From assembly GCA_036497565.1 (NCBI GenBank), contig DASXJE010000208.1:1-57855 (forward strand): a stretch of DNA of 57,855 nucleotides, read 5' to 3'. The notes below the pieces were generated by a model. That model was not told the DNA's origin and ran no database searches. It worked only from the letters and a program-made list of their open reading frames with translations. Of the stretch, positions 5,072 through 24,260 are shown one piece after another. Numbering within the stretch: the stretch's first letter is position 1; every line of letters starts with the position of its first letter. The position numbers were made by a program, and so were the translations under genes. The DNA comes from Mycobacteriales bacterium. Its GTDB lineage: Bacteria; Actinomycetota; Actinomycetes; Mycobacteriales; QHCD01.

Positions 5072-5122
5072 TTCCCGCCACCGAAGTCTGGCCGACCGAC
5101 TTTCGCCGCGGGCAACCCTTAG

Positions 5123-5920: not shown

Positions 5921-6023
5921 CTGCGCACCTCTCCCTGCCCGGCCCCCGGGGACTTTCAGTCATTCTGGTCCGCGGTCGCACCCTTCAGTGATGTGACCGT
6001 GCTTGTGGGGACAAGATCAGTCG

Positions 6024-6608
6024 ATGAACGAGACGCATCTGGCGCTGTGCGCCAGCGCAGAGTGGGCCGACGCGGTGCAGCGCTGGATCATTCCGTGGGC
6101 GCTCGAATCGGTCGATCTCGGCGACGACGTGCTCGAAGTCGGACCGGGGCCCGGGTTGACCACCGACGTCCTGCGCACCCGATTCGCGACGCTGACCGCG
6201 GTGGAGATCGACGCCGACCTTGCTGCGCAGCTTGCCGCTCGACTGGCGGGAACGAACGTGACCGTCGTCCATGCGGACGCGCGTGCGACGGGCTTGCCGG
6301 CCGACCGGTTCAGCGGCGCGACGTGCCTCACCATGCTTCACCACGTGCCGACCGCCGATCGGCAGAACGCTCTGCTCGCCGAGGTGCATCGGGTCCTCCG
6401 TCCGGGCGGGACCCTGGCCGGCACCGACAGCCTCGACAGTCCCGACTTCCGCGATCTGCACGTGGACGACGTATGCCTTCCGGTCGATCCGCAGACCTTC
6501 GGCACTCGACTCGAACAGGCGGGCTACGTCGACGTGCACGTCGATACGAACGAGTACGGCGTCCGCTTCCGAGCGAGAAAGGCCGGGCCGACGCGATCAT
6601 CTGGCTGA
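6024..6608 (+). CDS. Class I SAM-dependent methyltransferase
   Basis: A 194-residue protein with the Rossmann methyltransferase motif I DVLEVGPGPGLTTD, an acidic motif II (TAVEIDADLA) and the post-motif TMLHHVP. The target cannot be predicted. I chose the ATG at 6024 because the MNETHLALCASAEWA beginning matches the usual N-terminus of this actinobacterial group. An upstream in-frame TTG at 6003 would add seven unlikely residues. GGGGACAAG lies about 12 bases upstream, rather far for a Shine-Dalgarno, so a leaderless start with CAAGAT as -10 is also possible. Confidence 0.85.
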   Translation: MNETHLALCASAEWADAVQRWIIPWALESVDLGDDVLEVGPGPGLTTDVLRTRFATLTAVEIDADLAAQLAARLAGTNVTVVHADARATGLPADRFSGATCLTMLHHVPTADRQNALLAEVHRVLRPGGTLAGTDSLDSPDFRDLHVDDVCLPVDPQTFGTRLEQAGYVDVHVDTNEYGVRFRARKAGPTRSSG

Positions 6609-6695
6609 CGTCAGGTCAGCGCCTTGGCTAACCGTTCGACGGTCTGAATAAACCCGGTTGTCGGGGTCGGCCGCGGTCCTCGACGATGAGCCTCG

Positions 6696-7589
6696 ATGGA
6701 AGCAAAGATGCACGCCGACCAGGCCGAAACGGACGACGCACTCGTGCGACGTCTTCTGGCGGGACAGTTCCCGCAGTGGGCCCGGCTGCCGATCGACCGG
6801 GTCGCGTCCTCCGGTACCGATCACGACATCTATCGGTTGGGCGATCATCTTGCGGCCCGATTGCCTCGAATCGAGTCGGCCACCAGGCAGGCGGCCCTGG
6901 AGGCGGAATGGTTGCCGAAGCTCGCCCCACACCTTCCGCTCGCCATCCCCACGCAACTCGCGATGGGACGGCCGGCCGAGGGCTATCCGTTCGACTGGTC
7001 GGTGTACGAGTGGTTGCCGGGCGAGACGACCGTCCGCACGATCGACCCTGAGCAGGCGGCCGTCGACCTTGCCGCATTCGTGATCGCCTTACGTGGGGTC
7101 GATAAGGCCGGCGCGCACCGGCGCCCCCCGTACGGCCGAGGCGGCCCACTCACCGAACGCGACGACCACGTCCGGCGAGCGGTGGCCGAACTCGGCGACC
7201 GAATCGATGGTGACCGCATCCTGGGGCTGTGGCAGGAATCGCTCGACGCCGCGCCGTGGAAGGGTGCGGAGGTCTGGGTGCACGGTGATCTGTTGCCGGG
7301 CAACCTCCTCGTCGTCGACGGCCGGTTGTCAGCGGTCATCGACTTCGGCGGCCTCAATGTTGGCGATCCCGCGTGTGACCTGCAGCCGGCGTGGAACGAC
7401 TTCGACGGTGTCAGTCGTACGACGTTCCGGGCCGAACTCGGGGTCGACGACGCGTCCTGGGTCCGGGGCCGTGGCTGGGCGCTCTTCCAAGCTGTGACGG
7501 GGCTGGCGTACTACTGGGACACCAATCCCGGGATGATCCGCCAGGCGTCATACGCACTCGCGCAGGTCCTCGCCGGCGACTCAGCGTGA
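6696..7589 (+). CDS. Aminoglycoside phosphotransferase (APH) family kinase-like protein
   Basis: A 297-residue protein of the APH/choline-kinase fold. The catalytic loop HGDLLPGNLL lies near residue 199 and the metal-binding IDFGG near residue 215; both are intact, so it is probably an active small-molecule kinase. It may phosphorylate an aminoglycoside, macrolide, sugar or amino alcohol; the sequence does not decide. The start is either ATG 6696 or ATG 6708. GGAAG at 6699-6703 lies close upstream of the second, so the first four residues may not be made. The stop overlaps the end of the convergent molybdenum enzyme gene by 9 bases. Confidence 0.82.
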   Translation: MEAKMHADQAETDDALVRRLLAGQFPQWARLPIDRVASSGTDHDIYRLGDHLAARLPRIESATRQAALEAEWLPKLAPHLPLAIPTQLAMGRPAEGYPFDWSVYEWLPGETTVRTIDPEQAAVDLAAFVIALRGVDKAGAHRRPPYGRGGPLTERDDHVRRAVAELGDRIDGDRILGLWQESLDAAPWKGAEVWVHGDLLPGNLLVVDGRLSAVIDFGGLNVGDPACDLQPAWNDFDGVSRTTFRAELGVDDASWVRGRGWALFQAVTGLAYYWDTNPGMIRQASYALAQVLAGDSA

Positions 7590-10115: not shown

Positions 10116-10121
10116 CGGTCC

Positions 10122-10127
10122 ACTCTA
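10122..10127 (-). promoter_or_regulatory. Leaderless -10 element of the molybdenum hydroxylase gene
   Basis: Minus-strand TAGAGT is followed by six bases and the ATG at 10115. There is no Shine-Dalgarno. Confidence 0.45.
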
Positions 10128-10167
10128 GAGAATGGACGAACGCCCGGCGACTTCTCGCCCCAGCGGC

Positions 10168-10614
10168 TCAGATGCTCCGCGAGCTGAGCACATCGACCGC
10201 CTTGGCCACCCGCCGCGCGCGCGTCTCGGGCGTCTTGGCCTGGCCGATCGGGTCGACGAGCTGACGCTTCTTGCTTCTTGAGATGGACTCGAAGTGCTCG
10301 CGCGCGGCCGGGTCGGCGGCCAACGCGGCCGCCAGATCCGCCGGCACCTCCACCTCGCGCGGGGCGGTGTCGAGCTCGACGTCGACGGTGACGACGTCGC
10401 CGGCCGCGACACCGGCCTGCTCCCGGTTCTCCGCGCTGACCCCCAGCATCGACCGACCGCCCATGACCGCGATGGTGCTCCGGTAGCTGTGCCCGTTGAT
10501 CGTCACCGTGACCGGCGGGCGCTTGCCCTGTCCGAGTGCGGTCACCACGTCGGCCGGGACCTCGACACCGGTGGCGGTCTTGCCGCCGAGCTCGACGGTT
10601 GCCTCGAACTTCAT
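10168..10614 (-). CDS. DUF1905 / YdeI-type protein
   Basis: 148 residues. The N-terminal ~90 residues are a DUF1905 beta-barrel-like domain (MKFEATVELGGKTATGVEVP; TVTINGHSYRSTIAVMGG). The C-terminus (SISRSKKRQLVDPIGQAKTPETRARRV) matches the YdeI/OmpD-associated tail, in which a helical arginine-rich segment follows. Related proteins are called bacteriocin-protection proteins, but the role is not established. The gene starts 24 bases after the stop of the ECF sigma gene on the same strand and is probably co-transcribed with it. AAAGGATATGGC precedes the ATG at 10614. Confidence 0.8.
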   Translation of the reverse strand: MKFEATVELGGKTATGVEVPADVVTALGQGKRPPVTVTINGHSYRSTIAVMGGRSMLGVSAENREQAGVAAGDVVTVDVELDTAPREVEVPADLAAALAADPAAREHFESISRSKKRQLVDPIGQAKTPETRARRVAKAVDVLSSRSI

Positions 10615-10638
10615 GCCATATCCTTTCGGGTGGACCGC

Positions 10639-11598
10639 TTAGGTGGCTGTGAGCTTCGCCGGCAGGCCGAAGGCGGTGAGGTCGGCGGAGAGGAATGCGG
10701 TCACCTCGGCCACCCGACCGTCCCGGATCGTGAGGACGTCGAGCCCGCCGGGCAGGTAGGAGTCCGCGTCGTCGTCCCACAGGTAGGTGCCGAACGCGAT
10801 CTGGCCGTTGGCCGTTGTCGGCAGGAACCGCCACCGGGACTGCAACGGGCCATCTGTCAGGAACGCCCGGATGGCGTCCGGACCGTCGTACCACTCGGGC
10901 AGCGGTGGCATCGAGTACCGCGCGTCGTCGGCGAGCATTGTCACGATGGCGTTCACATCGCCGGCGTGCCAGGCGTCCGACCAGCGGGTGACGATCTCGT
11001 CGACACCGTCCGGGCCGAGATCGCGCAGCACGGACTGCTGGCTGACGTCGGGCGCGTCGACGACCTTGCGCGCACGCTGCAGCGCGCTGTTCACCGAGGC
11101 GGTGGAGGTGTCGAGCAGGTCCGCCACCTCGGCTGCGGAAAACCGGAGCACGTCACGCAGGATCAGCGCCGCGCGTTGTCCCGCGGACAGGTGCTGCAGC
11201 GCAGCGACGAACGCGAGCTCGACGCTCTCGCGCTCGAGGTACTGCGCCTCGGGCGACGCGTCGGGGTAGGGCTCGAGCCAGCTGATCTCGGTCGAAGGAG
11301 TCCCCGGAAGGACGTCGACCGGCAGTTCGCGCCGGCCGCGTCGCTCGAGGGCGGTCAGGCAGCGGTTGGTCGCGATCTTGTAGAGCCACGCCCGGACGAA
11401 CCCGCGCTGGTCGAGCCCGCCGAGGCTGCGCCAGGCCCGGACCAACGATTCCTGCACCGCGTCCTCCGCGTCGTGCAGGGATCCCAGCATCCGGTAGCAG
11501 TGCGCCACCAGCTCTGCCCGGTATGGGCCGACGAGCCGCTCGAAGGCGTCGGAATCCCCGGACCTCGCGGCGTCGAGGAGGTCGGCGGGCGGGCTCAT
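10639..11598 (-). CDS. ECF-type RNA polymerase sigma factor with SnoaL-like C-terminal domain
   Basis: 319 residues from the ATG at 11598. Region 2 (FERLVGPYRAELVAHCYRML, then DAEDAVQESLVRAW) and region 4 (LSAGQRAALILRDVLRFSAAEVADLLDTS) are complete. They are followed by a ~115-residue SnoaL/NTF2-like domain (VTRWSDAWHAGDVNAIVTMLADDARYSMPPLPEWY). In this class (TIGR02960-like) the C-terminal domain is thought to control activity in place of an anti-sigma factor, and none is encoded nearby. It is divergent from a free-standing SnoaL-like protein at 11677 and likely shares an operon with the YdeI-like gene. The longer frame upstream of 11598 would run into the divergent gene and is not used. 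Confidence 0.88.
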   Translation of the reverse strand: MSPPADLLDAARSGDSDAFERLVGPYRAELVAHCYRMLGSLHDAEDAVQESLVRAWRSLGGLDQRGFVRAWLYKIATNRCLTALERRGRRELPVDVLPGTPSTEISWLEPYPDASPEAQYLERESVELAFVAALQHLSAGQRAALILRDVLRFSAAEVADLLDTSTASVNSALQRARKVVDAPDVSQQSVLRDLGPDGVDEIVTRWSDAWHAGDVNAIVTMLADDARYSMPPLPEWYDGPDAIRAFLTDGPLQSRWRFLPTTANGQIAFGTYLWDDDADSYLPGGLDVLTIRDGRVAEVTAFLSADLTAFGLPAKLTAT

Positions 11599-11676
11599 CC
11601 GACCATCCTGGCCTCCGCGATGATTTTGCCGGTCGGCGCGGGTTCCATCCATGACACCCCGACATGAGGAGACGAC

Positions 11677-12108
11677 ATGACCGACGAGCAGCAGATCCGG
11701 GACCTGATCGAACGCTGGGCGATCGCCGTCCACGACGGAGACATGGCCACTGTACTGGCCGACCACGACTCCGAGATCGTGATGTTCGACGTGCCGCCCC
11801 CCAACGAGGGTGTGCGGGGGATCGAGGCATACCGGGAGACCTGGCCGGGATTTTTCGAGTGGCAGGCGAGCGGCGCGGTCTTCTCGATCCAGTCCTTGGA
11901 CGTCACGGCCGGCGCCGACGTCGCGTTCGCCTACGCGCTGCTGCGATGCGGAACGCCCACCGACTTCGAGCGTCGACCCGATGAGCGGCTACGACTCACC
12001 CTCGGGCTCCGCAAGGACGGCGACCGCTGGATCGTGGTGCACGAGCACCACTCCTTCCCGGACACCTCCAGCTCGTCCGACGAATCATCGCAATACCACG
12101 ACGCCTAG
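11677..12108 (+). CDS. SnoaL/NTF2-like protein
   Basis: A 143-residue cone-fold protein (IRDLIERWAIAVHDGDMATV at the N-terminus; RKDGDRWIVVHEHHSFPD at the C-terminus), ending in a Ser-rich tail. Such proteins may be small isomerases, hydrolases or non-catalytic ligand-binding domains; no active site can be assigned. GAGGAG at 11666-11671 lies five bases before the ATG. The gene is divergent from a sigma factor whose own C-terminal domain has the same fold. This pairing is suggestive but may be a coincidence. Confidence 0.82.
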   Translation: MTDEQQIRDLIERWAIAVHDGDMATVLADHDSEIVMFDVPPPNEGVRGIEAYRETWPGFFEWQASGAVFSIQSLDVTAGADVAFAYALLRCGTPTDFERRPDERLRLTLGLRKDGDRWIVVHEHHSFPDTSSSSDESSQYHDA

Positions 12109-12153
12109 CGCCGGGCTACGGCTGGCGGGGCGACGGTTCCGCAGGCTTGACCA

Positions 12154-13251
12154 TCAGAGCAGGGTGAGCAGAGCGCCTGCCGCCACTCCGCCGACGGCGA
12201 CCACCCCCGCGGTGGCGATGGTTGCCCGCCAGCCGAACGCCCGCAGCACCATCGTCATCCCCGGCACGCTCACCGCGGGCAGGGTGACGAGCAGGGCGCC
12301 GACGGCGCCCATCGACAGGCCGGCCACCGCGAGCCCCTGGATGATCGGGATCTCACCGGCGGTCGGGATGACGACGAGCGTGCCGACGATGGCTGCCACG
12401 AGGATGACCAGTAGGCCCGAATGCAGCGCGTCGCTCCCGAGAGGGAACAGCCAGCCGCGGAATGCGCCGACCAGCAGCACCATCACGAGGTACTCCGGAA
12501 GCACGGTCACCACGAGCCGCAGGAGTGCGCGGGCGAAGCGGTCCGGCGACTGCGCCCACCAGTCTTGGCCGTCGGGAGCCTCGACGTCCGCGGTCAGTAG
12601 GGCCGCGGCGTCGGCGGACGTGCCGCGATCGGCGATGCGCGCGACGACCGTCGAGCCGACCACGACGAGCAGCGCGCCGATCGCCAGCCGGGTCACTGTC
12701 CACTGCCACGGAGCGACGAAGGCCAGGAAGACGATCACTGCAGGATTCAGCAGCGGGTTGCCGAGCCAGTAGGCGACCGCCGCCGCGGTCGGTACGCCGT
12801 CGCGCCGGAGCGTCGACGCCACCGGAGCGGCGCAGCAGGTGCACATCATCGACGGCGTACTCATCAGGCCGCCGACCACGGCCGCTCCGGTGGGTCGGCG
12901 GCGACCCAGCAGGCGCCGCAGCCAGGTACGCGGGACGAGGGCCTGGATCGCCGCGCTGATGAGCACCGCAGCAACGAGTGCCTTCCAGATCGCGAGCCCG
13001 TATACGCCCAAGAAGCTCGTTGCCGCGTGCCAGCTCGGCGCATCTCCCGGATGAACTCCGCCGGTGGCCAGGATGTCGGTGCCAGACCATTTGTGGCTGG
13101 AGGAAAGGGTCACCGCCTTCGCGAGGTAGGGCGCCCACTTCGCCCAGAGTAGGGCGAGGGAACCAATGACCAGGGCGATCAGCACCCCGACTACGGCGGC
13201 GCTACGGGTGGGCCGGGACCGCGGTCGGTCATCGATAAGGGTGGCGAGCAC
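12154..13251 (-). CDS. Permease of the ArsP/YraQ (DUF318) family
   Basis: 365 residues with about eight to nine hydrophobic helices. The family hallmark is visible as STPSMMCTCCAAPVASTLRRDG followed by GNPLLNPAVIVFLAFVAPW, and it is repeated as EIPIIQGLAVAGLSMGAVGALL in the second half. ArsP relatives export methylated trivalent arsenicals; many other members have unknown cargo. No ars genes or thioredoxin-like partner lie next to it. The GTG at 13251 is preceded by TAAGCT and six bases, indicating a leaderless transcript. Confidence 0.83.
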   Translation of the reverse strand: MLATLIDDRPRSRPTRSAAVVGVLIALVIGSLALLWAKWAPYLAKAVTLSSSHKWSGTDILATGGVHPGDAPSWHAATSFLGVYGLAIWKALVAAVLISAAIQALVPRTWLRRLLGRRRPTGAAVVGGLMSTPSMMCTCCAAPVASTLRRDGVPTAAAVAYWLGNPLLNPAVIVFLAFVAPWQWTVTRLAIGALLVVVGSTVVARIADRGTSADAAALLTADVEAPDGQDWWAQSPDRFARALLRLVVTVLPEYLVMVLLVGAFRGWLFPLGSDALHSGLLVILVAAIVGTLVVIPTAGEIPIIQGLAVAGLSMGAVGALLVTLPAVSVPGMTMVLRAFGWRATIATAGVVAVGGVAAGALLTLL

Positions 13252-13257
13252 CGCGAC

Positions 13258-13263
13258 AGCTTA
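13258..13263 (-). promoter_or_regulatory. Leaderless -10 element of the permease gene
   Basis: Minus-strand TAAGCT, six bases, then the GTG at 13251. Confidence 0.4.
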
Positions 13264-13351
13264 CGAATGCGCCGTCCCGGGGTTCGGCGCGGTTCCGCTC
13301 AGCCGCGTTGGCTGCCGCACCGTGCGGTCAGTGGGACGGGTAAGGCGACGG

Positions 13352-13864
13352 TCAGAACAGCCTGGCCGCCGCCACAGTCGCCGGCTCCTCGAGTTCGAGG
13401 AGGAACTGCTTGCGCGATAGGCCGCCGGCGTAGCCGGTGAGCTTGCCGTCCTTCCCGACGACCCGGTGGCACGGGACGATGATGGACAGCGGATTGTGCC
13501 CGACCGCCTGACCTACAGCCTGCGCCAGCGTCTTGTCGCCGAGCCGCTCGGCAAGCTCGCCATAGGTCGTGGTCGCGCCGAACGGAATCTGTTCGAGCAT
13601 CGCCCAGACCCGCTGTTGGAACTCGTCGCCGTTCGCCGTGGTCGGCAGGTCGAACGAGGTCCGCTCCCCGGCGAGGTACTCGTCGAGCTGGATCCGCGCC
13701 GTGTCGAGCAGGAGGTCGTCGTGGGCGTCGACCCGGGACCCAAAGGCGTCCCGGTCAGGGTTGGTCCAGTGGTGCGCGAAGTAAAGCCCGATGATGGCGT
13801 CGTCGGTCGCGACGAGGGTCAGATCGCCGATCGCGGTGTCGACGATCGCGTGGCGGGTGTTCAT
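13352..13864 (-). CDS. ogt: Methylated-DNA-[protein]-cysteine S-methyltransferase
   Basis: A 170-residue suicide DNA-repair protein that takes the alkyl group from O6-alkylguanine. The acceptor cysteine is in IIVPCHRVVG, followed by GYAGGLSRKQFLLELE. The helix-turn-helix region QAVGQAVGHNPL precedes it. The length fits the Ogt/AGT family. The ATG at 13864 is preferred over an in-frame GTG at 13873 because AGGGAAGG lies eight bases upstream of the ATG. Confidence 0.93.
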   Translation of the reverse strand: MNTRHAIVDTAIGDLTLVATDDAIIGLYFAHHWTNPDRDAFGSRVDAHDDLLLDTARIQLDEYLAGERTSFDLPTTANGDEFQQRVWAMLEQIPFGATTTYGELAERLGDKTLAQAVGQAVGHNPLSIIVPCHRVVGKDGKLTGYAGGLSRKQFLLELEEPATVAAARLF

Positions 13865-13957
13865 GATCTGCACCTTCCCTGGTGTGAGCTGCCGTCACGA
13901 GGAAAACGCATCGGCGCGGCGAAACGTGAGATCAGCCGCGGCGAAACCGCGACACGG

Positions 13958-15337
13958 CTAGGCGGTCCACCGCGACGGCGCCCGGGGGGTCGCGCGGCGC
14001 GACATGCTCGACGCCTCCCGCAGCATCCGTACGACGTCGTCGATCCGGTCGAGCGGCATGGTGAACGGCAGGCGGAACCAGCGGTCCGCCGTACCGTCGA
14101 CGGTGAAACGCGGCCCCGGCGTGAGGCGCAGTCCGGCGTCGAGGGCGCGGGCGGCGAGGCGGGTCGCGCTCGGCTCGGGCAACTCCACCCACAGCACCAT
14201 TCCGGCTCGGGGAATCGCGCAGCGCCAGTCGGGCAGCTCGCGGGCAAGGGACTGCACGAGCGCATCCCGTGACCGACGAAGCAGGGCCCGGCGTGCGGGG
14301 AGGACCTCGTCGGCGCGGCGCAGCAGCTGCGCCGCGACCAGCTGGTCGAGGACCGGGCTGGCCAGATCCTGGCCCGCCCGCGCCTGAGCGAGCCGGCCGA
14401 GCAGCTCGGGCTCCGCCCGTATCCACCCGATCCGCAGTCCGGCCCAGAAGGCCTTGCTGATCGATCCGAGGGTGACGACGCGGCGGTCGAGCGCGCCGAG
14501 CCGGGGCGGCGGCCGGCCGTCCAGGACGAGATCGGCGAACGTCTCGTCCGCCGCCACCACGGCGGATCCGCCGACGTCGGTCAAGAGTCGGCGGCGCTGC
14601 TCCGCATCGGCGAGGAATCCGGTGGGGTTCTGCGCGTCGGGAGTGACGTGCACCAGCCCGGCCGAGGCGGTGGGAGCTTCCCAGCCATGCGCGGTCACCG
14701 GTATCGCCGCCGGACGCAGCCGATGTGCGGACACGGCGTCGAGGACCGCCGGGTAGGTCGGCTGCTCGACCAGCACCCGCGTCCCCGGCCGGGTGAGCAC
14801 CCGCAGCAGGAGGTCCCAGCCGTGCAGGGCACCACCGGTGACCAGCACTTGCTCCGTCCGGGTGGGCAGCCCGCATCCGGACAGGTGGTCGGCTACCGCG
14901 GCACGCAGCTCGGGAACACCGAGCGGATGCAGGCCGTGGCCGGCCAGCAGCGGCCGGAGGGCGACCGCGGCGTCCTGGACGGCGTCCACCAGCAGCGCCG
15001 GCGCCGGGAGCGCGGCGACACTCAGGTCGAGGACGTCCGCGCGGTCCGCGGGGTCGGAGTCCGGTCGCACCGGCACGGCGGCCGGCAGGGCCACCCGGCT
15101 GCCGGCGCCGTGATCGCTGCGCAGATAACCCTCACCGCGCAGGACGTCGTAAGCGGCGCTGACCGTCGTACGGCTCACCGACAACGCGGCCGCGAGCTCC
15201 CGCTCCGACGGCACCCGCGCACCGGCGGGCAGGCGGCCGTCGAGCGCCAGGCCGCGCAGCCCGGCGGCCACGGCGGCGTACGCCGGGCCGCTGTCCAGCC
15301 ACGGGTCGAGTAGCTCGGCGAGCCGGGACACCAGCAT
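13958..15337 (-). CDS. MocR-type regulator (GntR HTH fused to PLP aminotransferase-like domain), YczR-like
   Basis: 459 residues. An N-terminal winged HTH (RVPSERELAAALSVSRTTVSAAYDVLRGEGYL) is joined to a fold-type I PLP domain. The domain shows NPTGF, the DETFADL region and a Schiff-base lysine in SISKAFWAGLRIGWIR. MocR proteins are usually regulators rather than working aminotransferases. The neighbour is a YczE-type membrane protein transcribed in the opposite direction, and MocR proteins paired with yczE are a recognised subgroup (YczR). The ATG at 15337 is used; GACAAT lies six bases upstream. Only 18 bases separate it from the possible TTG start of yczE. Confidence 0.88.
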   Translation of the reverse strand: MLVSRLAELLDPWLDSGPAYAAVAAGLRGLALDGRLPAGARVPSERELAAALSVSRTTVSAAYDVLRGEGYLRSDHGAGSRVALPAAVPVRPDSDPADRADVLDLSVAALPAPALLVDAVQDAAVALRPLLAGHGLHPLGVPELRAAVADHLSGCGLPTRTEQVLVTGGALHGWDLLLRVLTRPGTRVLVEQPTYPAVLDAVSAHRLRPAAIPVTAHGWEAPTASAGLVHVTPDAQNPTGFLADAEQRRRLLTDVGGSAVVAADETFADLVLDGRPPPRLGALDRRVVTLGSISKAFWAGLRIGWIRAEPELLGRLAQARAGQDLASPVLDQLVAAQLLRRADEVLPARRALLRRSRDALVQSLARELPDWRCAIPRAGMVLWVELPEPSATRLAARALDAGLRLTPGPRFTVDGTADRWFRLPFTMPLDRIDDVVRMLREASSMSRRATPRAPSRWTA

Positions 15338-15342
15338 CCGGC

Positions 15343-15349
15343 CATTGTC
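15343..15349. promoter_or_regulatory. Possible symmetrical bidirectional -10 element
   Basis: CATTGT (15343-15348) lies seven bases before the plus-strand TTG at 15356. Its complement GACAAT (15344-15349) lies six bases before the minus-strand ATG at 15337. The two hexamers share the same five bases. The 18-base spacing between starts equals that of the pair at 56954/56973. Confidence 0.35.
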
Positions 15350-15355
15350 TCTCAC

Positions 15356-15379
15356 TTGGCCCTGTTCGCACCAGGCCAA
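15356..15379. promoter_or_regulatory. Inverted repeat, possible MocR operator
   Basis: TTGGCC at 15356-15361 and GGCCAA at 15374-15379 form an inverted repeat with a 12-base spacer, just inside the yczE side of the divergent pair. Position and symmetry fit a site for the adjacent MocR protein. The site is inferred, not matched to a known matrix. Confidence 0.4.
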
Positions 15380-16027
15380 AGCGTGCACGGTGTGGGAGTG
15401 TTGCTGCTCGCCTCAGTCCCCGCGACCCGCCGGCCCACCCGTTTTGCGCTGCTCCTCGGCGGTCTGACCCTCTACGGCGTCAGCGACGGATTGCTCGTGC
15501 TGGCCGGCCTCGGTCTCGACCCGTGGGACGTGTTGCACCAGGGCCTGTCCCGGACCTTCGGTCTGCAGGTCGGCACCTGGGCGATCATCGTGGGCGCGGT
15601 GGTCCTGCTCGGCTGGCTCCCGCTGCGTCAGCGGGTCGGGCTCGGGACGGTCTGCAACGTCGCCGTGATCGGCCTGGTCATCAACGCGACCATGGCGATC
15701 GTGCCGGCGCCGCACACGCTGATCGTGCAGATCGGCACGCTGGTCGGGGCCGTCGTACTCAACGGCATCGCCACCGGCGCATATATCGGTGCCGGGCTCG
15801 GGCCTGGTCCGCGGGACGGGCTGAGCACCGGCATCGCCGCTCGGGGAGTCTCGCTCCGGGTGGTGCGCACGGTAGTCGAGGTGAGCGTGCTGGCGCTCGG
15901 CTGGCTGCTCGGCGGCTCCGTCGGCGTCGGCACCGTCGTCTACGCCCTCGCCATCGGCCCGATCACCCACGTGACGATTCCGGCTCTCCGGCTTCGCTCG
16001 AGGCGGTCTCCTGCGGCGTCACGGTGA
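15356..16027 (+). CDS. YczE/YitT-type integral membrane protein
   Basis: Up to 223 residues with five or so hydrophobic helices. Typical family stretches are GLGLDPWDVLHQGLS near the N-terminus and GAGLGPGPRDGLSTGI in the middle. These two related Asp/Gly-rich loops suggest an internal repeat. The function of YczE proteins is unknown; a transport role linked to PLP-related regulation is often proposed from the MocR neighbour. The start is uncertain: TTG 15356 would be leaderless, while GTG codons at 15383, 15392 or 15398 are in frame and would leave the inverted repeat upstream. No clear Shine-Dalgarno distinguishes them. Confidence 0.8.
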   Translation: MALFAPGQSVHGVGVLLLASVPATRRPTRFALLLGGLTLYGVSDGLLVLAGLGLDPWDVLHQGLSRTFGLQVGTWAIIVGAVVLLGWLPLRQRVGLGTVCNVAVIGLVINATMAIVPAPHTLIVQIGTLVGAVVLNGIATGAYIGAGLGPGPRDGLSTGIAARGVSLRVVRTVVEVSVLALGWLLGGSVGVGTVVYALAIGPITHVTIPALRLRSRRSPAASR

Positions 16028-16055: not shown

Positions 16056-16118
16056 CCCCGGTGATCAAGAGGGGATTCCTTCGGCGTTTCGTGCTGAAAT
16101 CCCCTCTTGATCACGGGG
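16056..16118 (+). repeat. Palindromic hairpin element E2
   Basis: Arms GTGATCAAGAGGGGATT (16061-16077) and its exact complement (16098-16114) surround a 20-base loop containing TCGGCGTTTCGTG. The stem continues outward with CCCC/GGGG and one unpaired G. It starts 28 bases after the yczE stop and lies before the receptor gene. No T-tract follows. It is nearly identical to E3 at 24201-24260. Confidence 0.85.
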
Positions 16119-16259
16119 TGTGTGGGGCATCGCCGCATGAGAGCCGCGAGATCTCGGTACAGTTACGTTCAGTAGTCAAACGATTACTGGCCGGTGGGCG
16201 GCAGCGCCGCCGGACGTGACGGCGGCCGAAGTTCCCCGCGGCAGCTCAGGAGCGCCGCG

Positions 16260-18161
16260 ATGGGCATCAGCGCCGCAGACCAGAGCAAGGTCGGTACGGA
16301 CGTGCCCTCACCCAGCACCTCGTCGTGGCGCACCTGGCATCGACGCTTCGCCTTCCGGCTGGTGGCGGCGATGCTCCTGGTGTCGTTGCCGTTGATGGTG
16401 GTGCTCGCGGTCCTGCTGACCACATCGGCATCGAACAGCATCACGTCACTGGCGCAGAGCAAAGGCGAAAGCCTCGCCCGGGCGGTCGCACTGCGGACGG
16501 AGGACTGGCTCGCGGAGCGGCGACAGAGCCTGACGGTGCTCGCTGCGGCCGCAGCCGGTCACATGAGCGGCCCGACGACCGAGTCGACGCTGCGCAAGGT
16601 TGACTCCACGTCGGGGGATTACTCGTTGATCGAGATCACCAATCTCGAGGGCAAGGTCCTCTCGTCGAGCCGGCCCGGCGCGAGTGTCGACGTCGCCGGG
16701 GAGGACTGGTTCCATGCCGCGGCCGCGGGTCACGCCGTCGTGACCTCGCCCGTACGGCGCGGGGATTCCATCGAATGGATCATCACCGAGCCCATCATCG
16801 GAAACAACGGCCGTCAACAGGGGGTCGTGATCGGTGACCTCGATCCGACCGTGCTCACCACGCTCCTCAATCCCGAACTCGGCAAGGGAAGCAACGTCGT
16901 CGCCGTCGACCCGCAGCACCGCCTGATCTACAGCACCCGAGACATCGGGAAGGTGAGCGACGACGCCGCCCTGCTCGCGGGCGGATCGCTCAGCACCAAG
17001 GTCAACAACTCGGCGACGCAACAGGCAGCCAGCACCGGGGAGCCGGGAGCCACCCAGTTCACCGACCCCCACGGCAAGGAGGTCATCGGCGGGTTCGACG
17101 TCGTCGACAATCTGCATTGGACGCTCATCGCCGAAGAGCCCGCCAGCCTGCTGCTCGCGCCGGTCGCCACCCAGCGCCAGCATGCGATTTTGATCGTCGT
17201 TCTCGGCGCTGTCCTCATCACGATTGTGTCGATCCTGGTGGCGTGGCGCACGACGCGGCCGATCCTGCGGTTGACCCAGGTCGCGCGCAAGGTGACGGAG
17301 GGCGACCTCAATGCCCGCGTGGACCCGTCGGGTTCCAGCGAAGTCGTGCTGCTGGGCGAGTCCTTCAACTCGATGGTGGCCAACTGTCATCGGCTCATCG
17401 AGCAGGTCTCGAGCGCCGGCGTCGAGGTGAATACGGCGGCCGCGGAGCTGTCGGCCTCCTCGGATGAGTTGGCGGCCACCACGACCGAGCAGAGCGCGAC
17501 GGTGACCCAGGCCACGGCGACCACCGAGGAGTTGGCGCGGTCGTCGGCCACGATCGCGGACACGGTCGACGACGTCGCCCAGCAGACCGGCGAGACCCGC
17601 GACAACCTCGAACGGGCCGAGGCCGACATCTCCCTCTCCAGTGAGCGGACCCTCGCCCTGGCCGGCCGGGTCGACGACATCGACGCCCTGCTGGATCTGA
17701 TCAACGACATCGCCGACCAGACCAACCTGCTCGCTCTCAACGCGGCGATCGAGGCGGCGCGGGCCGGCGAGAACGGTCTCGGCTTCGCGGTCGTGGCCGA
17801 CGAGGTACGCCGGCTGGCCGAGCGCTCCAAGGCCTCTGCCGGCGACATCGCGACGATCGTCGCCGCCATCCAGAACGAATCCAATGCCACGGTCATGGCG
17901 ATGGAGAAGGGTTCGAAGCAGATGCAGCAGGGCCTGCACCTGCTGGAGGCGGTCACCGACGCCAATGCGCAGGTGCGGCTGACCACGCAGCAGCAACGCA
18001 GTGCGACCGCCCAGGTCGTCGAGACCATGGAGCAGCTCACGGATGCCAGCAGGCAGGTGTCCGCGACCGCCCAGCAGATAGCCGCCGCGGCCGGCAACCT
18101 CACCGATCTCGCCGGCAACCTCGAGACGACCGCGACTGCTGCGAGCAACGGACACCGATGA
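16260..18161 (+). CDS. Methyl-accepting chemoreceptor with Cache-like sensor (WspA-position)
   Basis: 633 residues. The first membrane helix is at about 36-58 ([20 protein letters not shown]). An extracytoplasmic domain of ~240 residues has Cache features ([56 protein letters not shown]). Then come a second helix near 305-327, a HAMP domain ([20 protein letters not shown]) and a signalling domain. The conserved hairpin tip is [19 protein letters not shown]. No C-terminal CheR-docking pentapeptide is present. The ATG at 16260 has AGGAG seven bases upstream (16248-16252). It is the first gene of a seven-gene signalling operon. P. aeruginosa WspA has a four-helix-bundle sensor instead, so the signal sensed probably differs. 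Confidence 0.92.
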
Positions 18162-18604
18162 CGGCCGTGCAGGCACTGGTGCTGCCGGTGGGAAGCGACC
18201 TCTATGCCCTGCCCGTCGACTGGGTGCGGGAGGTGGTCGCCACTCCGGCCCTGACCCCGCTGGTCACCGCGCCGGCGCTGGTCCTGGGCCTGTTCAATCT
18301 CCGGGGCCAGATCGTTCCGCTGCTCGACACCGCCGCCCTTCTGGGGATCGGCGTGGTGCAGGCAGCCATGTTCGCCGTCGTCGTCAACTGTCCGCAGGGT
18401 CCGATCGGACTGGCCGTCACCGGCTTCCCGCAGCGTGGCGTGCTCGATACGCCGGTCGGGCCGTCGGAGCTTCCGGGCACGAGCGGCCTCTACCGGCTCG
18501 ATCAGCGGGTGGCGGCACTGCTCGATCCGGCGGTCCTGTTGACGGCCGGACGCATCATGGGACCGGAGCTGCGCACCGACTCGCCGGCCGTCGGAGCGGG
18601 CTGA
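18158..18604 (+). CDS. CheW-like coupling protein (WspB-position)
   Basis: 148 residues. The CheW fold is shown by [19 protein letters not shown] and [20 protein letters not shown], the segments that contact receptor and kinase. It links the receptor to the CheA-like kinase. The ATG overlaps the receptor stop by four bases (ATGA), so translation is coupled. The C-terminus has ~20 extra residues beyond the barrel. Confidence 0.9.
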
Positions 18605-20610
18605 TGGCCGGGATCGATCCGGACATGCTGCGCGCGTTGTTCGTCCAGGAGGCCGAGGGCCGGCTCGCGGAGCTCGGCAGGTTGCTGTTGCAGCTCGAGC
18701 AGGCCGGCGAGGATCCGGACCTGGTGGGGGCAATCTTCCGCGAGATGCACACCCTCAAAGGGTCGTCAGCGGTGGCCGGCCTGGAAGAGGTCACGGGTAT
18801 CGCGCACCGTCTGGAAGATCTGGTCGACGAACTCCGGTCGGATCAGCGGCCGGTTACCCCCGAGGTGATCGACACGCTGCTGCGCGGTGTCGACCAACTC
18901 GGCGCCGCCTTGTCCGCACCGGCCGGCAGCCCACCGCCTCGCAAGCCGGCGCGGGTCGATCGGACCCACACGTCGGTCCGTCCGACTCCGGCACCCGCCG
19001 GACCGGCGGCCGATCCACCCGCACCGGCGATCGACGGCGGCGGTGTCATCATGGTGCCGGTCGAGCGCCTGGAAGAGCTCACCCGACTGGTCGGTGAGAG
19101 CGCCTCCGCGCATCTGCGGATCGGGCGGATGCTCGAAGACCGGTTCAGCATCGACCCTGCCACCTGCCCCGAGTTCAACGAGCTGTCGCGCTCACTCACC
19201 GATCTGCAGGACCGTGCGATGCGCACCCAGATGGTGCCGGTTTCCACCGTGACCGATCAGCTGCAGCGCGCCGTACGCGACCTGGCGCGCACGCATGGCA
19301 AGGATGTCCGCTGGGAGACCGAAGGCATGACGACCGAACTGGACCGCGGCGTCCTGCGGCAGCTGTCGGACTCCCTGATGCATCTGGTACGCAACGCCGT
19401 CGACCACGGGATCGAATCGCCGGACGGGCGGGAGGCCGCCGGAAAGCCACGGCAGGCGACGCTTCGGCTGCACGCGATGCAACTCGGTTCCGAGGTGATC
19501 ATTGCGGTGGCCGACGACGGCCGGGGGATCGACGTCGACGACGTGAGCCGACAAGCGCGTGAGAATGGTGTTGACACAGACGGGCTGACCGACGACGAAC
19601 TGCTCGAGCTGACCTTCGCGCCGGGCTTGTCCACCGCCAAGTTCGTCACGGACGTCTCGGGCCGGGGAGTGGGTCTCGATGCCGTCCGGGCCAGCGTCGA
19701 GGCCGCCCACGGACGCGTCGAGGTGCGGTCCACGCCAGGCGAGGGCACTGAATTCAGAATCGTCGTACCCATCACCGTCGCGGTGTTGCGCTGTCTCCTC
19801 GTCGAGGCGGGCGGGCAGAACTTCGCGCTGCCGTTCCACCGCGTGTTGTTGTCCCAGGCGCACGCGCCGGCCAAGTTGACGCACAACGAGGGGCGACCGG
19901 TGGTGTGGGTCGACGATCAGCCGGTGCCCGTGCAGGGCCTGGCAGAGACGGTCGGGATGGTCAGCGAGGTGACGACCGGACCCGTCGTGGTCCTGGCCGA
20001 CGCGACCAGGGGACACGCTTTCGCCGTCGATCGGCTGATCGGTCAACGCGACGTGGTCATCAAAGCACTGAACCCGCTGCTACCCCACCTGAGGTCGGTG
20101 GCCGGGGCCAGCGTCGAGCCGGACGGTTCGGTGCTCCTCGTACTCGATCCGCCGGGTCTCATCCAACGAGCCCGCCACGCGACCCGACGGAATGGGTTCG
20201 CAGCACCTCCCGAACACCACCCGACGATCGCGCACCGTCACAGCGTCCTGGTCGTCGACGACGCACTCACGATCCGTGAGCTACAACGCAACATCCTCGA
20301 ACGCGCCGGCTTCGACGTACGGGTGGCGACGGACGGAACCCAGGCATTGTCCAGTCTGGCGCAGGCGCCCGCCGATCTGGTGCTCACCGACATCGAAATG
20401 CCGAACATGAACGGCTTCGAGCTGACCGAGGCGATTCGGGCCCGTCCTGCGCTGGCCAATATTCCGGTGCTGATTCTCAGCTCCAGGTCGAGTGACGTCG
20501 ACCGGCAACGGGGACTCGACGTCGGAGCGGACGGATATATCACCAAGAGCGGGTTCGACGAGTCCAGCCTGCTGACGGCCGTAAACCGGCTGCTCGGGAG
20601 TCACCCATGA
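18604..20610 (+). CDS. Hybrid chemotaxis histidine kinase CheA-REC (WspE-like)
   Basis: 668 residues. The Hpt domain carries the phospho-acceptor His49 in MHTLKGSSA. A Pro-rich linker (~105-145) replaces the P2 domain. Dimerisation and ATPase domains follow, with the N box LMHLVRNAVDHGIE, DDGRGID and GRGVGLD. Then come a CheW-like domain (~395-530) and a C-terminal receiver with Asp552/Asp553, phospho-acceptor Asp596 (LTDIEMPNMNG) and ITKSG for the conserved Lys. A fused receiver is typical of WspE and FrzE. The start overlaps the CheW stop by one base. It probably phosphorylates the downstream REC-GGDEF protein and the CheB-like protein. Confidence 0.93.
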   Translation: MAGIDPDMLRALFVQEAEGRLAELGRLLLQLEQAGEDPDLVGAIFREMHTLKGSSAVAGLEEVTGIAHRLEDLVDELRSDQRPVTPEVIDTLLRGVDQLGAALSAPAGSPPPRKPARVDRTHTSVRPTPAPAGPAADPPAPAIDGGGVIMVPVERLEELTRLVGESASAHLRIGRMLEDRFSIDPATCPEFNELSRSLTDLQDRAMRTQMVPVSTVTDQLQRAVRDLARTHGKDVRWETEGMTTELDRGVLRQLSDSLMHLVRNAVDHGIESPDGREAAGKPRQATLRLHAMQLGSEVIIAVADDGRGIDVDDVSRQARENGVDTDGLTDDELLELTFAPGLSTAKFVTDVSGRGVGLDAVRASVEAAHGRVEVRSTPGEGTEFRIVVPITVAVLRCLLVEAGGQNFALPFHRVLLSQAHAPAKLTHNEGRPVVWVDDQPVPVQGLAETVGMVSEVTTGPVVVLADATRGHAFAVDRLIGQRDVVIKALNPLLPHLRSVAGASVEPDGSVLLVLDPPGLIQRARHATRRNGFAAPPEHHPTIAHRHSVLVVDDALTIRELQRNILERAGFDVRVATDGTQALSSLAQAPADLVLTDIEMPNMNGFELTEAIRARPALANIPVLILSSRSSDVDRQRGLDVGADGYITKSGFDESSLLTAVNRLLGSHP

Positions 20611-21647
20611 CCGCCGGAGCGGGTGCGCACACCGTTCGCGCCGTCGTCGTCCAGGATGTACGGGGGCGCCCGAGCCGGCTGGTCGACGCCCTGTGTGGCG
20701 AGGGTGACATCGTCGTCATAGGCCGACCGACGACCTCGGTCGATGCCATCCGGGAAGTGGCGGTGCTCCGTCCCGGTGTCGTCGTCCTCGACCTCCATCT
20801 GCCCGACGGTCAGAGCCAGTACGTCATCGAGCAGATCATGGCCCGTAGTCCGACGCCGATCCTGGTCCTGTCGGCACCTGCCGACGACCACCAGGCTCCA
20901 TCCGCCGTCGATGCCCTGGTCGCCGGCGCTCTGGAGGCCCTTCCCCGCCCGCCCCGGTGGACGCCGGAGCTTGGCGCGGACCTGAGGCGCACGGTACGCA
21001 GGATCAGCCGGGTCACGGTGATCCGCCATCCGCGTGGCAGTCGCGCGATCAGCACACGGCACGACGCCGATCCGTCCGGACGCCGGCCCGTCGTCGCGAT
21101 CGCCGCGTCCACGGGCGGACCCAATGCGCTGGCCGTTCTCCTTGCGGGCCTCGGCGGCCTCCGCGCGCCGGTGCTGGTGGTCCAGCACCTGCATCCCGAC
21201 TTCATCACCGGACTCGTGGAATGGATGTCGCGCGTATGTCCGCTCCCGGTCGAGACTGCCCGTCATCGGCAGAGCACCCGCCCTGGGCGCGTCTACTTCG
21301 CGCCGGGGGAACACCACCTCCACTACTGCGCCAACGGCCGTCTCGAGCTCGCGGCTGCCCCCGCGACGGTGCATCGCCCGTCAGCGGACGAGCTGTTCCG
21401 GGCGGTCGCTGCTGGTGCCGGATCCGCGGGAATCGGTGTCCTGTTGACGGGCATGGGCGAGGACGGTGCTGCTGGTCTGCTGGCCATGCATCGGCAGGGC
21501 GCAGCCACCCTCGCCCAGGATGAGGCGTCGTCGGCCGTGTTCGGAATGCCGCAGGCCGCGAATCGGCTGGGCGCCGTCACCACTCTGCTTCCGCTCGACA
21601 AGCTCGCCGGCGCCATCCAGCAGGCTGTCTGCGAGGTGCTGTCATGA
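20607..21647 (+). CDS. CheB-like receiver-methylesterase (WspF-like)
   Basis: 346 residues. An N-terminal receiver-like domain (~10-115) keeps the phospho-site context VVVLDLHLPDG. Its acidic pair is reduced to QD (VVVQDVRG) instead of DD, and the usual Lys segment is not clear (VAGALEALPRP), so phosphorylation may be altered. The methylesterase domain has Ser in IAASTGGPNA, His in VVQHLHPDF and Asp in LLTGMGEDGA, all intact. It would remove methyl groups from receptor glutamates to adapt signalling. It overlaps CheA by four bases. Confidence 0.9.
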   Translation: MTAGAGAHTVRAVVVQDVRGRPSRLVDALCGEGDIVVIGRPTTSVDAIREVAVLRPGVVVLDLHLPDGQSQYVIEQIMARSPTPILVLSAPADDHQAPSAVDALVAGALEALPRPPRWTPELGADLRRTVRRISRVTVIRHPRGSRAISTRHDADPSGRRPVVAIAASTGGPNALAVLLAGLGGLRAPVLVVQHLHPDFITGLVEWMSRVCPLPVETARHRQSTRPGRVYFAPGEHHLHYCANGRLELAAAPATVHRPSADELFRAVAAGAGSAGIGVLLTGMGEDGAAGLLAMHRQGAATLAQDEASSAVFGMPQAANRLGAVTTLLPLDKLAGAIQQAVCEVLS

Positions 21648-22891
21648 GCCAGGACGGACCGGAGGTCGCCCTCGACCAGGTGGCCGGGCTGCTGGCCGAG
21701 GCGATAGGGCTTCGCCCCGACCCGACACTTCGCGGCCGGCTGGGCCGAGCCGTCCGGGACGAGGTGGCCGCACGCGGCGGGGATCTCACGACGTACGCCG
21801 CGACTCTGATCACCGACCAGGACGCGATGCAAGGTCTGATCAATCGGATCACCGTGCAGGAGTCGGCGTTCTTCCGCCACCCTCGACACTTCCAGGTGCT
21901 TGCCGAGCAGGTCCTCCCGGCGCTCTCGCCACCGGTGACGATCTGGAGCGTGGGTTGCGCCAACGGTCAAGAGGCCTACAGCCTGGCGATGCTGCTCGAG
22001 GAGCAGGGTGTCGACGGCCGGGTCATCGCGACCGACGTCTCGACCGCTGCACTGCAGCGAACGGCGGCCGCGCGCTACACCGGTCGCGAGCTGGCGGGCC
22101 TGTCACCGCAGCGCATCGCCGACCACCTGACGCGATCGGGCGAGGCGTGGAAGATGAGCCCGTCGATCAGGGCGCGGGTCAGCACCCGGCAATACAACCT
22201 TGTCGATCCGCTACCGAGCGAGATCCTCACCTGTCAGGTCGTCTTCTGCCGCAACATCCTCATCTATCTCTCACCCGAACGTGTGTGTGCGTTCCTCGAC
22301 CAGCTCGCCGACAACCTTCCCTCCACGACCTCCCTGTTCGTCGGTGCCGGTGAAACTCTCCTGCAGGTATCGGACCGCTTCGAAGCCGTCCCGTCAGGGG
22401 ATACCTTCGTGTATCGGCCGCCTGTGGCCGACGCCGTATCGGCACCGAACACACCGAGGCGTCGACCTGTAGTGGCGAGTTCGCACCGCGCCCCCGTCCC
22501 GCGCGTCGCCCGGGACAAGCCGACCACCGCGCCGGAGCGGAGGTCATCGACGGCTGACAGCAGTCGATCGGAGGCGCCGGAGCAGACGGGTACGGCGGCC
22601 GCCCTGCTGGCGGCGGCGGGCCAGTCCGCCGTTGCCGCGAACGACTACGACGCGGCCGTCGTGGCATTCCGTAAGTGCGCCTACCTCGAACCGGACGATC
22701 CGATGTCCCAGCTACACCTGGGGTTGGCCCTCGAGGGTGCCGGCGATCCCGGCTCTGCGCGACGCGCCTACGCCTCCTCCCGCCGCCTGCTCGAATCCAA
22801 TCCGTCCCACGATCTCGACGGGATCGAAGGCTATGCGACGGCCGAGCTCCTCCGGCTGCTCGACTTCAAACAGCGGGCGCTCAGCAAATGA
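21644..22891 (+). CDS. CheR-type receptor methyltransferase with TPR-like tail (WspC-like)
   Basis: 415 residues. CheR motifs are QESAFFRHPRHFQVL, the SAM-binding VGCANGQEAYSLAML, and VFCRNILIYLSPE. After a Pro/Arg-rich linker (~265-310) comes a helical TPR-like region (AVAANDYDAAVVAFRKCAYLEPDD). CheR with TPR repeats is the arrangement of WspC and of other chemosensory systems outside flagellar taxis. It adds methyl groups to the receptor at 16260. It overlaps CheB by four bases (ATGA). Confidence 0.92.
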   Translation: MSQDGPEVALDQVAGLLAEAIGLRPDPTLRGRLGRAVRDEVAARGGDLTTYAATLITDQDAMQGLINRITVQESAFFRHPRHFQVLAEQVLPALSPPVTIWSVGCANGQEAYSLAMLLEEQGVDGRVIATDVSTAALQRTAAARYTGRELAGLSPQRIADHLTRSGEAWKMSPSIRARVSTRQYNLVDPLPSEILTCQVVFCRNILIYLSPERVCAFLDQLADNLPSTTSLFVGAGETLLQVSDRFEAVPSGDTFVYRPPVADAVSAPNTPRRRPVVASSHRAPVPRVARDKPTTAPERRSSTADSSRSEAPEQTGTAAALLAAAGQSAVAANDYDAAVVAFRKCAYLEPDDPMSQLHLGLALEGAGDPGSARRAYASSRRLLESNPSHDLDGIEGYATAELLRLLDFKQRALSK

Positions 22892-23268
22892 CGACCATGG
22901 TGTGCTTCGAAGCGGCCGGCGAGGACTACTGCCTGCCGGTGCAGGTGACCCGCGCGGTACGGACTGCCGAGACGGTGATCGCGCTGCCCGATCCGGTTCC
23001 GGACGTCGTCGGCGTCATCGCGGGCGATCCTCCGCTGACCGTGATCTCCGCGTTGCAGTCGAAGGGCATGCAGATCCTCGTCGTTGACACCGGCGAGAAG
23101 ACCTTCGGTCTGCTCGTCGACAAGGTCACCGGCCTGCTGCGCGTCGATGACGATCTGATCCGACCCGCACCGCCCGGACAACAGTCTCCGCTCATCTCCG
23201 GAACTCTCGACGCCGAAGGCCACCCCGTACTCGTGGCAGATCCCATCGCATTGGCAGGACGACTATGA
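22888..23268 (+). CDS. Second CheW-like coupling protein (WspD-position)
   Basis: A 126-residue CheW-fold protein (CFEAAGEDYCLPVQVTRAV; FGLLVDKVTGLLRV). It is shorter and more divergent than the first CheW: the usual LNLRGxIxPV segment is reduced to VVGVIAGDPPLTVISA. It may form a separate coupling interaction in the array. The ATG overlaps the CheR stop by four bases. Confidence 0.85.
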   Translation: MTTMVCFEAAGEDYCLPVQVTRAVRTAETVIALPDPVPDVVGVIAGDPPLTVISALQSKGMQILVVDTGEKTFGLLVDKVTGLLRVDDDLIRPAPPGQQSPLISGTLDAEGHPVLVADPIALAGRL

Positions 23269-24188
23269 CGATCGCACATGTGCTCATCGCCGACGATTCC
23301 CTCGTCATCCGGACGGTGGTCCGGACCCAGCTCGAGGAGAAGGACTATCGCGTCAGCGAAGCCGGCAACGGAATCGCGACGCTCGAGCAGTGCCGCCTCG
23401 ACCCACCGGACGTCGTTCTGCTCGACATCGAGATGCCCGGACTCGACGGATACGAGGTGCTGTCCGAGCTCAAGGCCGACGCCCGGCTGCGGAATATCCC
23501 GGTCGTGTTCCTCACCGGTCGCAGCGACATGCGAGACCTCCTCGCGGGGCTGCGCGGCGGTGCCCACGACTACCTCAAGAAGCCCTTTCACGGCGCCGAA
23601 CTGCTCGCGCGGGTCGGAGCCGCCGCGAACGTCAAGAAACTGCAGGACCAACTCGAGGAACGTAACGCCGATCTCGAACTGATGAGCCGCACCGACGGGC
23701 TGACCGGGCTGTACAACCGCAGACATCTCGACGATGAGCTGGTGCGCCGGCGCAACGACGCGCAACGCCATCAGGAGCCGCTCTGCCTGTTGCTCCTCGA
23801 CATCGACCACTTCAAACACGTCAACGACACGTACGGTCACTCGACCGGCGACCTGGTCCTGCGCGCGTTCGCCGCCCGGCTCCAGGCGGAGCTACGCGCC
23901 GGCGACGTCGCCGGTCGGTGGGGCGGGGACGAGTTTCTGGTGATCCTGCCGCACACCGACCTCGCCGGCGGCCTGGAACTCGCCGAGCGGATCCGCGGCG
24001 CGATGGCGTCCGACAGCATCGAGGCCGCGGGGAAGGACATCAGCGTGACCGTGAGCGGGGGCTGTGCGCTCGGCGCGGTCGGCGACTCCGCGGACGCCGT
24101 ACTCGACCTCGCCGACAACTGCCTCTACGAGGTGAAGGTCGCGGGCCGGAATCAGATCGTGACGGCCAAGCTCCCCGCGCGCACCTGA
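23265..24188 (+). CDS. Response-regulator diguanylate cyclase REC-GGDEF (WspR-like)
   Basis: 307 residues. The receiver domain has DD in LIADDSLVIR, phospho-Asp54 (LLDIEMPGLDG), a Thr in VFLTGRSD and Lys in YLKKPF. A coiled-coil-like linker (KKLQDQLEERNADLELMSR) joins it to a GGDEF domain. The active-site motif GGDEF is at 220-224, and an inhibitory RxxD site (RAGD, 211-214) lies exactly five residues before it. It should make c-di-GMP when phosphorylated and be feedback-inhibited. It is the last gene of the operon and overlaps the second CheW by four bases. It provides the output of the pathway. Confidence 0.94.
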   Translation: MTIAHVLIADDSLVIRTVVRTQLEEKDYRVSEAGNGIATLEQCRLDPPDVVLLDIEMPGLDGYEVLSELKADARLRNIPVVFLTGRSDMRDLLAGLRGGAHDYLKKPFHGAELLARVGAAANVKKLQDQLEERNADLELMSRTDGLTGLYNRRHLDDELVRRRNDAQRHQEPLCLLLLDIDHFKHVNDTYGHSTGDLVLRAFAARLQAELRAGDVAGRWGGDEFLVILPHTDLAGGLELAERIRGAMASDSIEAAGKDISVTVSGGCALGAVGDSADAVLDLADNCLYEVKVAGRNQIVTAKLPART

Positions 24189-24200
24189 TACCCGTCCTCG

Positions 24201-24260
24201 CCCATGATCAAGAGGGGATTCGTACGGCGTTTCGTGTCGAGATCCCCTCTTGATCACGGG
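24201..24260 (+). repeat. Palindromic hairpin element E3
   Basis: GATCAAGAGGGGAT (24206-24219) pairs with its complement at 24242-24255, extended by T-A, one mismatch and CCC/GGG. The 22-base loop contains ACGGCGTTTCGTG. It sits 12 bases after the REC-GGDEF stop, between convergent genes, and encodes the last ~17 codons of the minus-strand phosphatase. There is no T-tract. It is nearly identical to E2. Confidence 0.85.

Follow-up and report, generated by a model that had tools for sequence, protein, structure and literature searches.

The locus described here raises the question of whether an actinobacterium possesses the Wsp chemosensory pathway or a different system that works in the same way. 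The window, i.e. the whole stretch of DNA that was analysed, is a single contig of 57,855 bases from a draft genome of 4.8 Mb (316 contigs, 97.8% complete). It also encodes DUF1707 and mycothiol maleylpyruvate isomerase N-terminal domains, which we take to fit an actinobacterial host. Positions 16260-24188 of the + strand hold seven intact open reading frames, each running from ATG to TGA, and the domains of all seven proteins were assigned by Pfam profiles, that is, from sequence:

16260-18161, + strand, gene A: methyl-accepting transmembrane receptor, dCache_1 - HAMP - MCPsignal (Pfam)
18158-18604, + strand, gene B: CheW, canonical coupling protein with the NLRG motif
18604-20610, + strand, gene E: CheA with Hpt (His49), P3 (H-kinase_dim), HATPase, CheW-like P5 and a C-terminal REC
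20607-21647, + strand, gene F: CheB methylesterase with a degenerate REC domain
21644-22891, + strand, gene C: CheR methyltransferase with a TPR-like C-terminal region (weak TPR in Pfam)
22888-23268, + strand, gene D: second CheW, divergent, without the RG motif
23265-24188, + strand, gene R: REC-GGDEF diguanylate cyclase with Asp54, GGDEF, the I-site RAGD and a 29-residue linker

From A to R, consecutive frames overlap by 4, 1, 4, 4, 4 and 4 bases, which points to translational coupling; an alternative in-frame GTG start of gene A is located at 16194. A sequence-only reading had described seven overlapping genes for a receptor, CheW, CheA-REC, CheB, CheR-TPR, CheW and REC-GGDEF, and the reading frames and Pfam assignments confirm this inventory. 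His49 of CheA and Asp54, GGDEF and RxxD of R, which it had called intact, are all present, and the order A-B-E-F-C-D-R, which it had set against the Wsp order A-B-C-D-E-F-R, was found in the window as well as in a second genome (L125). The DNA composition of the operon resembles that of its flanks, and a scan for promoters and terminators found none. Adjoining the operon at 13958-16027 is an ordinary divergent pair encoding a YczR-like MocR regulator and a YczE membrane protein.

Profile searches with Flagellin_N and FHIPEP, which give matches in flagellated control genomes, detected neither flagellin nor FlhA in the 97.8% complete host genome. For phylogenetic placement, a CheA tree was calculated from the P3-P5 regions of 69 sequences including six Wsp CheAs. 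The actinobacterial operon forms a clade of its own (100/100), the six Wsp CheAs form another, and the flagellar CheAs are a supported group that contains neither of the two. In AU tests with CheA alone, a union with the actinobacterial F5 class was rejected (p = 0.02) and a union with all flagellar CheAs was not (p = 0.17). Concatenation of CheA, CheB and CheR led to rejection of both the flagellar union (p = 0.009) and the union with actinobacterial F5 (p = 9e-6), and the separate CheB and CheR trees split flagellar from non-flagellar systems with the operon of the window on the non-flagellar side. A flagellar placement, named beforehand as the result that would speak against a Wsp-like pathway, is thus contradicted by the combined test and by the failure to find flagellar genes; gene content and the AU tests on the three proteins together rule out a flagellar chemotaxis operon. 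The F5 class has the CheA, CheW, CheB, CheR and MCP families in common with the operon, but F5 CheA carries an extra CheW domain, has no C-terminal receiver and is associated with flagella, whereas E has a receiver and a common clade is rejected. Neither a grouping with flagellar CheA, by which the F5 and F9 classes are recognised, nor the extra CheW domain of F5 was found. The assignment to the ACF class rests on three results: neither flagellin nor FlhA was found, the CheB and CheR trees give a non-flagellar position, and the flagellar union is rejected. Recent acquisition from Proteobacteria was also considered and rejected: the best proteobacterial matches reach only 31-40% identity, and the composition is like that of the flanks.

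How widely the operon occurs was determined by searches for its CheA. Among 200 genomes of the order, three besides the host encode a CheA of 65-71% identity, 148 genomes of the class contributed one more (65%, from another order, L164), and no such CheA occurs in the only further genome of the family. The complete order A-B-E-F-C-D-R is present in L125 (CheA 65% identical). In L126 the contig ends inside B and E-F-C-D-R are present, in L124 the contig ends within E, and L164 has A-B-E-F-C-R without D. The search for the seven-gene order that the sequence-only reading had called for thus returned one complete match, the others being cut by contig ends or lacking D. Orthologues are 48-65% identical per protein, and a conserved order at this level of identity is far beyond chance. 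As the order is kept in other genomes while the flanking genes differ between them, we regard the operon as a conserved, self-contained module.

More distant relatives share the core of this module. The host itself has a second chemosensory operon (L014, 6186-12513, on its contig C43) that encodes MCP, CheW, CheA:REC, CheB, CheR(TPR) and a CheY-like REC; it follows the same A-B-E-F-C order and contains no GGDEF protein. In the wider phylum, the single-contig genome G448 (locus L220, CheA 47% identical) has A-B-E-F-C-D followed by an ABC transporter with no REC-GGDEF nearby, and G348 has A-B-E on a short contig. Either the A-B-E-F-C core is older than its link to the cyclase or the cyclase was lost or moved in L220. 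A tree with more actinobacterial systems placed L220 as sister (100/100) and the C43 operon of the host next (87/87). Other arrangements were also observed. L222 (about 5076-14011) is an actinobacterial chemosensory operon with REC-GAF-GGDEF between CheB and CheR. L135 (about 5178-14686) is another, with REC-PAS-GGDEF-EAL; in the trees, its CheA, CheB and CheR cluster with those of a system on a Sinorhizobium plasmid. Clusters of the type CheW-MCP-CheA:REC-[REC] without CheB or CheR nearby (L127, L166-L182) are widespread in many families of the class and constitute a large actinobacterial chemosensory family; the final REC was accompanied by GAF in the one case that was checked.

The cyclase R is a predicted diguanylate cyclase, as judged by its GGDEF signature, its phosphorylatable receiver Asp and its I-site. 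The RxxD motif is RAGD, in a register before GGDEF identical to that of PleD, and RxxD and GG[DE]EF are kept in four of four R orthologues. In the PDB, R matches the full-length REC-GGDEF enzymes DgcR and WspR and also PleD, and among NCBIfam models it matches PleD and DgcR. DgcR is activated through pseudo-phosphorylation, and work on this enzyme has described how receiver phosphorylation activates a short-linker REC-GGDEF dimer, with linker lengths that are discrete and change in steps of seven (PMC8041772). Of the eight GGDEF proteins found in the host genome, R is the only one in which the profiles used detected a receiver. Its membership in the operon rests on the gene overlap and on conservation in three orthologous operons (L125, L126 and L164); against it counts that the A-B-E-F-C core occurs with another output in two relatives (C43 and G448). 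There is good support for a chemosensory pathway of non-flagellar type whose output is a predicted diguanylate cyclase. The earlier expectation of a complete pathway of this kind, ending in a phosphorylation-activated R with an I-site, agrees as a prediction with the sites, the domains and the conserved order.

The receptor orthologues in L125 and L164 likewise have a dCache_1 domain. By alignment, the signalling hairpin of A is 14 residues shorter per arm than that of WspA. A WspA homologue of P. syringae has been placed in the 40H class (PMC11253619); if WspA is 40H, the hairpin of A would be of 36H-like length. Candidate methylation stretches with E/Q pairs lie on both sides of the signalling tip. 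The second CheW, D, has no N-[LV]-R-G motif and is missing from L164, in which there is no room for it between C and R. The receiver of F matches REC below the Pfam cut-off, its acidic pair is Q-D (the first acidic residue being Gln), and the conserved Lys is absent. In four orthologues the pair reads QD, QA, ED and ED, with Lys in none, and proteobacterial WspF has ND, likewise without Lys. Since these conserved residues are missing from the receiver of F, phosphorylation probably does not gate demethylation as it usually does.

By analogy to established chemosensory logic, a ligand or an envelope signal at the extracytoplasmic dCache domain of A would alter the activity of the kinase E, to which A would be coupled via the CheW proteins B and D. 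E would autophosphorylate at His49 and then transfer the phosphate to Asp54 of R, and a dimer of the phosphorylated receiver would enable the GGDEF domains to make c-di-GMP. Synthesis would be limited by product bound at the RxxD I-site. Adaptation presumably depends on methylation of the receptor by C and demethylation by F, and the C-terminal receiver of E, which by eye has a complete active site, may act as a phosphate sink or a brake.

We consider it probable that the operon is a self-contained, non-flagellar (ACF-class) chemosensory operon with c-di-GMP output, like Wsp in its working and a separate actinobacterial ACF lineage. The contents of Wsp (MCP, two CheW, CheR-TPR, CheA-REC, CheB and REC-GGDEF in one operon) are all present, but the wspA-wspF gene order by which Wsp systems have been recognised (PMC8552884) is absent from both the window and L125. 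The reference Wsp operons came from Burkholderia, Cupriavidus, Variovorax, Azoarcus, Mesorhizobium and Novosphingobium replicons, the Pseudomonas operon lying outside the set. Identity to Wsp proteins is 33-39% for E, 34-37% for F, 32-34% for A (signalling part only) and 28-30% for C, while B shows either 33-38% over 55-60 amino acids or no match; the identity of at least 30% used for WspA-F homologues (PMC8552884) is not reached across the set. R is not a WspR-type cyclase and A is not a WspA-type receptor. The operon is built like Wsp but differs from it in most of the parts compared, so that it is either a very old relative of Wsp or the product of a second, independent origin of this circuit.

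Descent from Wsp itself, or from a shared Wsp-like ancestor with a REC-GGDEF output, would require that genes were reordered and that receptor and cyclase were remodelled, and we regard it as doubtful. The identical seven-gene domain inventory is what one would expect of such a history; the CheB receivers share the lack of Lys and the motif GAL[DE]A, the signalling part of A as well as E, F and R are 31-39% identical to Wsp proteins, and the AU test does not reject a common clade (p = 0.46 for E alone, 0.31 for E+F+C and 0.13 for E+F+C with L220 added). However, no tree has a supported branch that joins E, F or C to Wsp, and the nearest relatives, L220 and C43, are actinobacterial and have the same gene order with other outputs. 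A single clade of R and WspR is borderline rejected (AU p = 0.057) and the linkers differ in length (29 residues versus 46-48). For D, BLAST gave no match among the Wsp proteins, and the weak best match of B in Mesorhizobium is WspD, not WspB. That a Wsp-like circuit arose independently in Actinobacteria, where an actinobacterial A-B-E-F-C core that elsewhere has other outputs acquired a PleD/DgcR-type cyclase, i.e. by convergent evolution, has in our judgement an even chance of being correct. The identification with Wsp made at the outset is not supported, since order, receptor class, B and D and cyclase subfamily differ and the trees yield no supported union. The data likewise do not support Wsp as the family name, and the operon is filed as an ACF-class variant that works like Wsp. 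Equally unsupported is the role in surface sensing and biofilm formation, which had been carried over from Pseudomonas by analogy. As the periplasmic domain of Pseudomonas WspA is replaceable (PMC8846402), the dCache domain alone argues neither for nor against surface sensing.

Two further explanations concern what the pathway controls. Its role could lie in another form of motility or in development (type IV pili, gliding, spores), c-di-GMP being a side branch, which appears improbable to us. Pili are often under c-di-GMP control. Zoospore formers such as Actinoplanes are among the Actinobacteria that have ACF systems (PMC10746217), but flagellin and FlhA were not found in the host, and in the genomes read neither the operon nor its neighbourhood showed a recognisable gene for a pilus, a stand-alone CheY or motility. 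It is more improbable still that the pairing of kinase and cyclase is non-exclusive, so that E would pass phosphate mainly to the receiver that it carries itself or to the CheY-like protein encoded on C43, and R would be driven by other kinases. The intact receiver on E and the cyclase-free second operon in the same genome would fit such an arrangement, and the CheA of contig C43 could cross-talk with R. On the other hand, R overlaps D by 4 bases and directly follows the core in L125, L126 and L164.

A palindromic dispersed repeat is found on both sides of the operon:

16061-16114, no strand assigned: copy 1, intergenic, upstream of A
24204-24257, no strand assigned: copy 2, directly downstream of R, a possible terminator or REP-like element

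The repeat consists of arms TGATCAAGAGGGGAT and a conserved loop TCGTACGGCGTTTCGTGTCGGA, and it resembles either an element of the REP type or a terminator that recurs. Nine copies were counted in 412 kb of the host genome (about one per 46 kb), with local clusters elsewhere, and it was not found in 2.5 Mb of other loci. Its occurrence in the window and on contigs C6, C34, C105 and C113 of the host, together with this absence from other loci, indicates that the contig of the window belongs to this genome. The pair was rejected as a signal of mobility, since its density and the local clusters make flanking by chance plausible.

Wsp has been called exclusive to beta- and gammaproteobacteria on the basis of a synteny-based search (PMC8552884); an operon with its genes in another order would be missed by such a search. 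The same restriction in the sequence-only reading proved too narrow: exact wspABCDEFR operons are present on alphaproteobacterial replicons, namely a Mesorhizobium ciceri plasmid (L144, 3145-11545) and Novosphingobium humi (L185, 5831-14200), the WspE proteins of which are about 50-56% identical to betaproteobacterial WspE. Chemosensory systems that modulate c-di-GMP are said to belong to the ACF and TFP classes (PMC8846402). The accessible part of the actinobacterial survey lists the classes F1, F5, F7, F9 and ACF, reports ACF in six species, assigns no output to these ACF systems and does not mention Wsp (PMC10746217). A search confined to the open literature brought up no description of an actinobacterial chemosensory operon whose output is a cyclase. 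A conserved operon that links a chemosensory array to a cyclase, in a genome in which flagellar genes were not found, offers a concrete and testable function for actinobacterial ACF systems. The recurring features, i.e. the second CheW, the degenerate CheB receiver and the CheA receiver, allow one to ask which of them matter in Wsp.

Compared with Wsp of Pseudomonas and Burkholderiales, the operon has seven matching domain architectures in one operon, including CheA-REC, CheR-TPR and two CheW proteins, and both are non-flagellar and of ACF type. In contrast to the dCache_1 receptor A with its shorter hairpin, WspA is a 4HB_MCP_1 receptor with a long hairpin of the 40H type. The RG motif is distributed in reverse, being present in B and absent from D but present in reference WspD and mostly absent from WspB, and D lacks the Cys-rich N-terminal extension of WspD. 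The receiver signature of WspR (QDLVMP...LVKLP) and its long linker are absent from R, the receiver of which is of the PleD/DgcR type. R resembles DgcR of Leptospira and PleD-type cyclases in the sequences of its receiver and GGDEF domain, in having a short coiled-coil linker and in its I-site; DgcR, however, has been described as a two-component output outside chemosensory operons, whereas R lies inside one. The other actinobacterial ACF systems (C43, L220, L222 and L135) are operons of non-flagellar type as well, and the A-B-E-F-C order recurs in two of them, L220 and C43. Around one core, a series of exchanged outputs becomes apparent, REC-GGDEF here, a CheY-like REC in C43 and none adjacent in L220, while L222 has REC-GAF-GGDEF and L135 REC-PAS-GGDEF-EAL.
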